The position numbers and the translations under genes are program-made. Under the pieces are notes generated by a model, which was not told the DNA's origin, ran no database searches, and saw only the letters and a program-made list of their open reading frames with translations. This document shows positions 8,476-9,834 of a stretch of 32,267 nt of DNA, piece after piece (within the stretch, counting starts at the first letter, position 1; every line of letters begins with the position of its first letter). The stretch is from Chitinophagales bacterium (GTDB lineage: Bacteria > Bacteroidota > Bacteroidia > Chitinophagales > LD1). The stretch covers positions 1 through 32,267 of the forward strand of contig JANWXI010000026.1 in NCBI GenBank assembly GCA_025057415.1, in the 5' to 3' direction.

Positions 8476-9465
8476 ATGCAAAATGACTTTCACCGCTCGC
8501 AGCTCGACCAGCCGCACCCGCAGCGTACCCGTGAGCTAATTCAAAAGTACCCCGAAATCAAAAAATTGATGGGGAAAAATCCTTATACGTTTCTCATCAT
8601 GCTTTTTGTATTGGCGCTGCAAACGTCCATTGCCTATTGGATGGGGCAACTTGGTATGTCGTATTGGTGGCTTGCGTTTATTGTGGCGTACCTGATTGGC
8701 GCTTTCGCCAACCATTGCATGTATGTAATTATACACGAAGCAAGCCACAACCTCATATTTACCAACAAAAGCTGGAACCGCTGGACAGCCATCCTCGCTG
8801 ACCTGCCAAATCTTTTTCCGGGCTCAATGGGGTTTTTTGTTTATCACCTGAAACACCACGCGCATCAGGGCGACTATGACTACGATGCCGACATCGCCAA
8901 CCGTTGGGAAGCGCGCCTCATTGGCAACACCCCGCTGGGCAAAGCGCTCTGGCTGGCTTTCTTTCCGGTATTTCAGCTTACGCGCCCGCCGCGCCTCAAA
9001 GCCATTACCATGTGGAGCAAGTGGAGCTGGTACAATTTAATTGCCGCTATTGTTTATGATGTATGCATCGTGTATTTCTGCGGGTGGGCCGGCTTGTTGT
9101 ATCTTGCTTTTTCATTTTTCCTTTCGATAGGGCTGCATCCCGTGGGGGCGCGCTGGATACAGGAGCATTACACACCCGATGGCTCGCAGGAAACTTTCAG
9201 CTACTACGGGCCTATTAATTACGTGGCGCTCAATGTGGGCTATCACAACGAGCATCACGATTTTCCTTCGGTACCCTGGAACAACCTGCCCAAAATACGC
9301 GCCATTGCACCGGAGTATTACAACAATATCCGCTATCACACCTCGTGGATGAAATTGCTGTTGCAGTTTTTGTTTGACAGCCGGTATTCACTTTTCAGCC
9401 GGGTGGAGCGCATTGGCGAGGGCAAGGTAAACCTGATGAAAAAACAAACTGCTGCGGTAATGTGA
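8476..9465 (+). CDS. DES1/DEGS-like sphingolipid delta-4 desaturase homologue
   Basis: This is a membrane fatty-acid-desaturase family protein of 329 residues with the three histidine boxes: HEASH (87-91), HLKHH (124-128, then AHQGD) and HNEHH (257-261). Flanking sequence matches the eukaryotic sphingolipid delta-4 desaturase subfamily far better than acyl-lipid desaturases. Examples are KYPEIKKLMGKNP near the N terminus, GLHPVGARWIQEHY, ETFSYYGPINYVALNVGYHNEHHDFPSVP (in pieces, 239-267) and RAIAPEYYNN (275-284). Family members introduce the 4,5-trans double bond of ceramide using O2, iron and electrons from cytochrome b5 and its reductase. Many Bacteroidota make dihydroceramides, so a sphingoid-base substrate is plausible here; it is an inference, as is the redox partner. 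Four or more membrane helices are visible. The small secreted-protein gene follows after 39 bp. Confidence 0.85.
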   Translation: MQNDFHRSQLDQPHPQRTRELIQKYPEIKKLMGKNPYTFLIMLFVLALQTSIAYWMGQLGMSYWWLAFIVAYLIGAFANHCMYVIIHEASHNLIFTNKSWNRWTAILADLPNLFPGSMGFFVYHLKHHAHQGDYDYDADIANRWEARLIGNTPLGKALWLAFFPVFQLTRPPRLKAITMWSKWSWYNLIAAIVYDVCIVYFCGWAGLLYLAFSFFLSIGLHPVGARWIQEHYTPDGSQETFSYYGPINYVALNVGYHNEHHDFPSVPWNNLPKIRAIAPEYYNNIRYHTSWMKLLLQFLFDSRYSLFSRVERIGEGKVNLMKKQTAAVM

Positions 9466-9504: not shown

Positions 9505-9834
9505 ATGAAAACTACAATTCTCTTTTTGTTATTGATACTGGCAACCGCCGTACATGCCGTACCGAACGGCTACGCCATTATGCGCGTATTTGACTGCAAC
9601 CGTGCCGTAGGGTTAGGCGGCGGGTACGTTAACTCACGCATCATTATCGTATATGAGGATGGTAAGGTTGAGGAAGTGGAGCTATTGCCCTTTAGCGAAA
9701 AGAATGTGATTGAGAACATGCGCACTATCGTTAAAACCCTCAATAAAATCAGCGCGCAGGGTTATTTGCTGATATCGCAAAGCACCAGCGGTGAGCAAGG
9801 TTCGCTGGTAACAGATTATACGTTTCATAAATAA
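9505..9834 (+). CDS. small secreted protein of unknown function
   Basis: I do not recognise this 109-residue protein. The frame opens at a TTG at 9481, but I choose the ATG at 9505 because it gives a clean signal peptide: MKTT, then a leucine-rich core, then an A-V-H-A cleavage site near residue 18. The mature part is about 90 residues with a single Cys, a glycine cluster (GLGGGY) and the pattern IIIVYEDGKVEEVEL, followed by a helix with NMRTIVKTLNKISAQGY. The ending, a strand reading GYLLISQSTS then TDYTFHK, resembles small secreted Bacteroidota proteins in which a terminal Y-T-F-x-K strand closes a beta-sheet; this is an impression, not a family match. It lies 39 bp after the desaturase on the same strand and is probably co-transcribed with it. 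Confidence 0.7.
   Translation: MKTTILFLLLILATAVHAVPNGYAIMRVFDCNRAVGLGGGYVNSRIIIVYEDGKVEEVELLPFSEKNVIENMRTIVKTLNKISAQGYLLISQSTSGEQGSLVTDYTFHK

Follow-up and report, generated by a model that had tools for sequence, protein, structure and literature searches.

The window analysed here, a stretch of 32,267 nucleotides from a Chitinophagales bacterium, encodes a protein that resembles sphingolipid delta-4 desaturases (Table 1). The reading frame is open and complete, with an ATG start. Matches to two Pfam families were identified, FA_desaturase (101.8 bits against a cut-off of 29.7) and Lipid_DES, which carries the annotation 'Sphingolipid Delta4-desaturase' (47.6 bits against a cut-off of 23). 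Among 14 control genomes, PF00487 has matches in 5 and PF08557 in none; thus, PF08557 sets the DES family apart from ordinary bacterial desaturases. NCBIfam returned weak matches to unrelated hydroxylase and ketolase models, far below their cut-offs.

Table 1. Coordinates of the desaturase gene and its features in the window.
Feature	Position	Strand	Basis
Sphingolipid delta-4-desaturase-like gene, 329 aa, type II (bacterial) branch	8476..9465	+	ORF, Pfam PF00487 and PF08557, tree
Lipid_DES domain, N-terminal, residues 2-37; marks the DES family	8479..8586	+	PF08557; same span by genome search
Histidine box 1, HEASH (H87, H91)	8734..8748	+	Both His invariant in rows with letters; position by codon count
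Histidine box 2, HLKHH (H124, H127, H128)	8845..8859	+	Invariant in 129/129 rows
Histidine box 3, HNEHH (H257, H260, H261)	9244..9258	+	Invariant in 129/129 rows

An earlier note had pointed to the motifs KYPEIKKLMG, GLHP, SYYGPIN, NVGYHNEHHDFP and RAIAPEYY, and all were found in the translated gene. The eight histidines of the boxes, together with H14, H221 and H231, are invariant in those rows that have letters at these positions, in an alignment of 129 rows that comprises 128 bacterial relatives (one row incomplete) and human DEGS1, whose sequence was entered by hand. Alignment A1 of the desaturases comprised 22 of the 30 sequences extracted by that stage. The human enzyme (DES1/DEGS1) shares with the window protein the Lipid_DES N-terminus, the three histidine boxes, H14, H221 and H231, the NVGYHNEHHDFP block and its length. 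The two proteins differ in motifs, the window protein having GARWIQEHY and IPWNNLP-type sequences where the human sequence used has SGHFIAEHY and IPGKSLP.

An AlphaFold model of the desaturase (mean pLDDT of 86.7) was compared with solved structures using VIA-align. The nearest chain is 8xks_K (Z 19.1, rmsd 3.8, 281 residues aligned), followed by 8xqw_M (Z 17.5, rmsd 3.9, 281 aligned) and AlkB (8f6t; Z 15.3, rmsd 4.0, 253 aligned). Stearoyl-CoA desaturases are further off (Z 5.7-6.4, rmsd 5.2-5.8, 201-209 aligned). The protein is thus predicted to have a membrane di-iron fold. A phmmer search of the PDB gave no match at E 0.01, so there was no solved DES relative for comparison. A viral origin of the gene was considered and rejected, as neither a related viral contig nor a PHROGs family was identified; a Foldseek search of viral proteins returned general giant-virus desaturases only. 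Directly downstream (9508-9834, + strand) is a gene for a small predicted secreted protein without a Pfam family match. It recurs beside the desaturase, forming a cluster of eight loci including the window, and was present in 8 of 17 loci of relatives.

The protein is 38.7% identical to the human DEGS1 sequence used (BLAST, E 1.6e-70), whereas its best match among seven other Bacteroidota desaturases has an E value of 4e-6. A tree of 55 rows was built using 47 of the 128 desaturases, with human DEGS1 as its single eukaryotic sequence, and contains two bacterial branches, here called type I and type II. Type I, sampled by six proteins (L003-L005 and L174-L176), groups with human DEGS1 at 100/100. 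Three of these six are from other families of the window's order, where they co-occur with a gene for an enzyme like serine palmitoyltransferase (SPT). Bacteroidota type I proteins reach 50% identity to the human sequence used. The window protein belongs to the same family as the type I proteins but sits in type II, which forms a 33-row branch at 97/99; near the base of this branch, additional rows from Bacteroidota are unresolved. Members of type II occur in Bacteroidota, Ignavibacteriota, Verrucomicrobiota, Acidobacteriota and Alphaproteobacteria. The root of the tree is weak (47/80), and L237, an outgroup row of great length, was left unresolved within the DES rows; for the family grouping, the similarity gap therefore carries more weight than the rooted tree does. 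Taken together, the comparisons support placement of the window enzyme with the DES/DEGS kind, apart from other desaturases. The earlier note had described a eukaryote-like delta-4 desaturase of the DES1/DEGS branch, distinct from bacterial acyl desaturases. The assignment to the DES kind stands, both by domain and by sequence similarity. The eukaryote-like subtype does not, as it is the type I branch that human DEGS1 joins.

The gene is widespread, well beyond what chance would give. Thirteen of the other 17 genomes in the genus encode an orthologue (14 of 18 counting the genome of the window), and relatives are encoded by at least 581 stretches from a set of bacterial and archaeal genomes. 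Among the matches listed, the nearest named relatives are from Chitinophagales and other Bacteroidota metagenome-assembled genomes (68-73% identity), followed by those of Verrucomicrobiota (63-70%). Such closeness across phyla suggests transfer of the gene.

The earlier note would have given up its reading had the genome lacked any genes for sphingolipid synthesis, and had proposed a search for serine palmitoyltransferase. An SPT-like enzyme is in fact encoded. The genome has three alpha-oxoamine synthases. One is a glycine C-acetyltransferase (KBL; 692.6 bits against the NCBIfam cut-off of 493). Another is nearest to BioF in NCBIfam and is adjoined by what we take to be biotin genes. The third (C42, locus L152/L034; here L152) has as its best PDB match the Sphingobacterium SPT 3a2b (402 bits), ahead of 8-amino-7-oxononanoate synthase and KBL entries (291-293 bits) and cysteate acyltransferase (225 bits). 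In a tree of 66 alpha-oxoamine synthases, from which 17 of 83 sequences had been dropped beforehand, L152 falls in a 36-row clade (support 100) with the 15 curated SPTs, defined as those passing the NCBI equivalog cut-off, and apart from cysteate acyltransferase (CFAT), KBL, BioF and ALAS. It scores 487.9 bits with the SPT equivalog model NF047600, under the cut-off of 640, and for this reason we call it SPT-like only. L152 is sister to the curated SPTs and, on this placement, is predicted to be a serine-palmitoyltransferase-like enzyme. Cysteate acyltransferase (SulA/CFAT; 7u7h, 28eh), which belongs to a sister pathway with a sphingoid-like base and is present in some desaturase carriers, has no match in this genome (G000) at E 1e-90 or in any of the 30 genomes of its family, in a search that covered 80 of 98 genomes.

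Other ceramide-pathway genes were also sought. A profile built from six GNAT proteins of the neighbourhoods described below gave no ceramide-synthase-like match at E 1e-20 in the genome of the window, the assembly of which is 93.9% complete, and a single-protein search of the same genome, run without a positive control, was empty. The profile was rejected as a discriminator, since 63 of 80 genomes have a match to it, among them 14 of the 17 relatives with cysteate acyltransferase. Short-chain reductases of this genome were likewise rejected as decisive candidates for 3-ketosphinganine reductase, since the matches are weak and the model matches 13 of the 14 control genomes.

Where GNAT genes score highest, they tend to lie beside SPT genes. 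Fourteen of the 17 top matches sit 18-152 bp from an SPT or SPT-like gene, adjoining a curated SPT in six genomes (G002, G214, G253, G099, G091, G033) and an SPT-like gene in eight (G236, G224, G051, G127, G089, G191, G384, G447). The other three are from G433 (no SPT-like match) and from G426 and G444, in which the GNAT and SPT-like genes are on separate contigs. These counts refer to the top 17 only; the matches from the window's genus score lower. In G436, genes for the SPT-like enzyme, an epimerase (CerR-like) and the GNAT protein are consecutive. Bacterial CerS is described as an N-acyltransferase (PMC11324152), and the adjacency supports the name SPT-like. At 9 of 17 loci (L246-L250, L253, L255, L260, L261), the SPT-like gene also adjoins a gene for a protein of ~430-455 aa. 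The one copy scanned has no Pfam family match; it may be a lipid-pathway gene.

Within the order, the desaturase and the SPT-like enzyme occur together. Of 57 genomes, 21 encode both, three the desaturase only, one the SPT-like enzyme only and 32 neither (Fisher p 1.9e-11, with genomes counted regardless of relatedness). Counted by genus, six have both and 23 neither, with no discordant case (29 genera, p 2.1e-6). Three of the six genera carry a type I desaturase and three a type II desaturase. Because both types show the pairing, it is not a single inherited event. Cysteate acyltransferase was identified in 17 of the 57 genomes, all of which are without the desaturase and without the SPT-like gene. 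In the lineage of the window, the SPT-like enzyme takes the place that cysteate acyltransferase has in many of the sampled relatives of the order, and the desaturase accompanies it. The SPT-like enzyme (22 carriers) and cysteate acyltransferase (17) are never found together in these 57 genomes (G395-G450 among the relatives), as if sphingolipids and sulfonolipids replaced one another in the order. Three genomes carry the desaturase with matches to neither synthase, namely G398 and G399 (both 99% complete) and G423 (73% complete).

Six desaturase-bearing Bacteroidia (G150, G391, G146, G249, G371, G387) encode cysteate acyltransferase and have no SPT-like match at E 1e-120; the desaturase family is thus not bound exclusively to SPT. 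Across the sample of the phylum, an SPT-like match was present in 34 of 40 desaturase carriers and in 265 of 355 non-carriers. We rejected such phylum-wide counting, given how common the match is whether or not a genome has the desaturase. Among the Bacteroidota sampled from outside the window's class, SPT-like enzymes of the type in the window's genome are very frequent, in carriers and non-carriers of the desaturase alike.

In three other phyla the two genes are physically linked. We searched for an SPT-like gene in the fetched flanks of the desaturase at 80 named loci among the matches listed. Within this set it was identified at 9 of 9 alphaproteobacterial loci, 21 of 25 Verrucomicrobiota loci and the single Acidobacteriota locus; the remaining four Verrucomicrobiota contigs end 356-884 bp past the desaturase gene. 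Of the linked SPT-like genes in the set, 30 of 31 are on the same strand as the desaturase. No SPT-like gene was found beside the desaturase in the fetched flanks of the 34 Bacteroidota and 11 Ignavibacteriota loci among the matches listed. Often co-located in the linked loci are genes for a GNAT N-acyltransferase, a fatty-acid hydroxylase and a CDP-alcohol transferase. The usual order in Verrucomicrobiota is desaturase, fatty-acid hydroxylase, SPT-like enzyme, CDP-alcohol transferase and GNAT, and that in Methylocapsa, Methylovirgula and Beijerinckia is SPT-like enzyme, GNAT and desaturase. As the Verrucomicrobiota are close relatives, their loci represent few independent events.

The SPT-like proteins of Verrucomicrobiota and Alphaproteobacteria form clades separate from the Bacteroidota SPTs in the 66-row tree, from which it follows that the desaturase family is joined to three SPT-like lineages. 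One SPT-like protein per group was compared with the PDB; the best matches are the SPT entries 3a2b and 8guh, with glycine C-acetyltransferases and related entries slightly lower. The desaturase/SPT-like cluster on the contig labelled Acidobacteria (L049) is near-identical to that of Verrucomicrobiota, its SPT-like protein and that of L065 having branch lengths of 0.036 and 0.013. This cluster may be either a recent transfer or a mis-binned contig.

The family signature, the full set of histidines, the fold class, the SPT-like enzyme in the genome, the co-occurrence within the order and the operon-like linkage in three other phyla together suggest a function in sphingolipid modification. The desaturase probably introduces a trans double bond between C4 and C5 of the sphingolipid long-chain base, and probably does so on a dihydroceramide-type lipid. 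It would be a membrane-bound, oxygen-dependent di-iron enzyme that uses O2 to remove hydrogen at C4-C5. The substrate may be the free sphingoid base or dihydroceramide, with the N-acylated, dihydroceramide-type lipid the most likely. Where the double bond lies, and its geometry, are predicted by likeness to DEGS1 in animals. Electrons could be supplied by cytochrome b5, ferredoxin or another donor. A desaturase-family enzyme that acts on bacterial sphingolipids has been described in Caulobacter (CC_0202; PMC11324152). CC_0202 is described there as a DesA-family desaturase/hydroxylase that hydroxylates the amide-linked acyl chain rather than the long-chain base, and this description sets it apart.

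The same substrate and carbon could be involved in a different reaction, namely C4 hydroxylation to form phytosphingosine-type bases. DES2/DEGS2 enzymes are bifunctional and can hydroxylate C4, so that both activities occur in one family with the same histidine set. The position of Asn113 in the human DEGS1 sequence used is also suggestive, as it is Asp in the window protein and in those of Verrucomicrobiota and Alphaproteobacteria; the type I proteins shown have Asn. This position matters, because Asn113His of human DEGS1 is reported as a disease variant. The closest characterised enzyme, DEGS1, is however chiefly a desaturase, and we consider hydroxylation unlikely.

A sulfonolipid of the capnine type, formed via cysteate acyltransferase, could instead be the true substrate, with the capnine base being desaturated. 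All six of the Bacteroidia that carry the desaturase without an SPT-like match have this enzyme, and that of L162, one of the six, matches A. finegoldii SulA (7u7h) with 610.7 bits and CFAT (28eh) with 577. Given the presence of cysteate acyltransferase and the absence of an SPT-like match, a sulfonolipid substrate is possible in these six lineages, and it may be used by other desaturase carriers. For the window enzyme, this substrate is highly improbable. The genome and its family lack matches to cysteate acyltransferase, the order relatives that encode it lack both the desaturase and the SPT-like enzyme, and the desaturase adjoins SPT-like genes in three other phyla. Least probable of all is that the protein resembles DES in appearance only and serves ordinary membrane lipids, as an acyl-lipid or acyl-CoA desaturase; FA_desaturase is a broad Pfam family and related genomes encode several other members, but the Lipid_DES domain, the wide distance in sequence from the seven other desaturases of Bacteroidota in the comparison, and the linkage and co-occurrence with SPT-like genes all argue against it.

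The sphingolipids of bacteria are in general regarded as saturated, of the dihydroceramide type, and the double bond is what sets ceramide apart from dihydroceramide in animals. Unsaturated ceramides are usually attributed to animals, plants and fungi; the combination of the desaturase with an SPT-like gene suggests that some bacteria produce them too. In the open-licence literature searched, we found no report of a characterised bacterial delta-4 sphingolipid desaturase. A broader reading is possible, though we hold it tentatively and with some doubt. In this reading 4,5-unsaturated ceramides would be widespread in bacteria, and the desaturase family would have been paired separately with at least three SPT-like lineages (Bacteroidota, Verrucomicrobiota/Acidobacteriota and Alphaproteobacteria). 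Some Bacteroidota that have cysteate acyltransferase and lack SPT would use a sulfonolipid substrate, and eukaryotic DEGS would derive from, or have been exchanged with, the type I branch still found in Bacteroidota.

If C4-C5 desaturation of the long-chain base is correct, many soil and water bacteria would make the unsaturated form of ceramide. This would bear on what microbes pass to their hosts, on the use of 4,5-unsaturated bases as a eukaryote marker in environmental lipidomics, and on the origin of the animal enzyme. The prediction is probably directly testable in carriers whose strain names suggest that they are isolates, Methylocapsa palsarum NE2 (L096) and Beijerinckia sp. L45 (L095), in both of which the desaturase gene adjoins the SPT-like gene.
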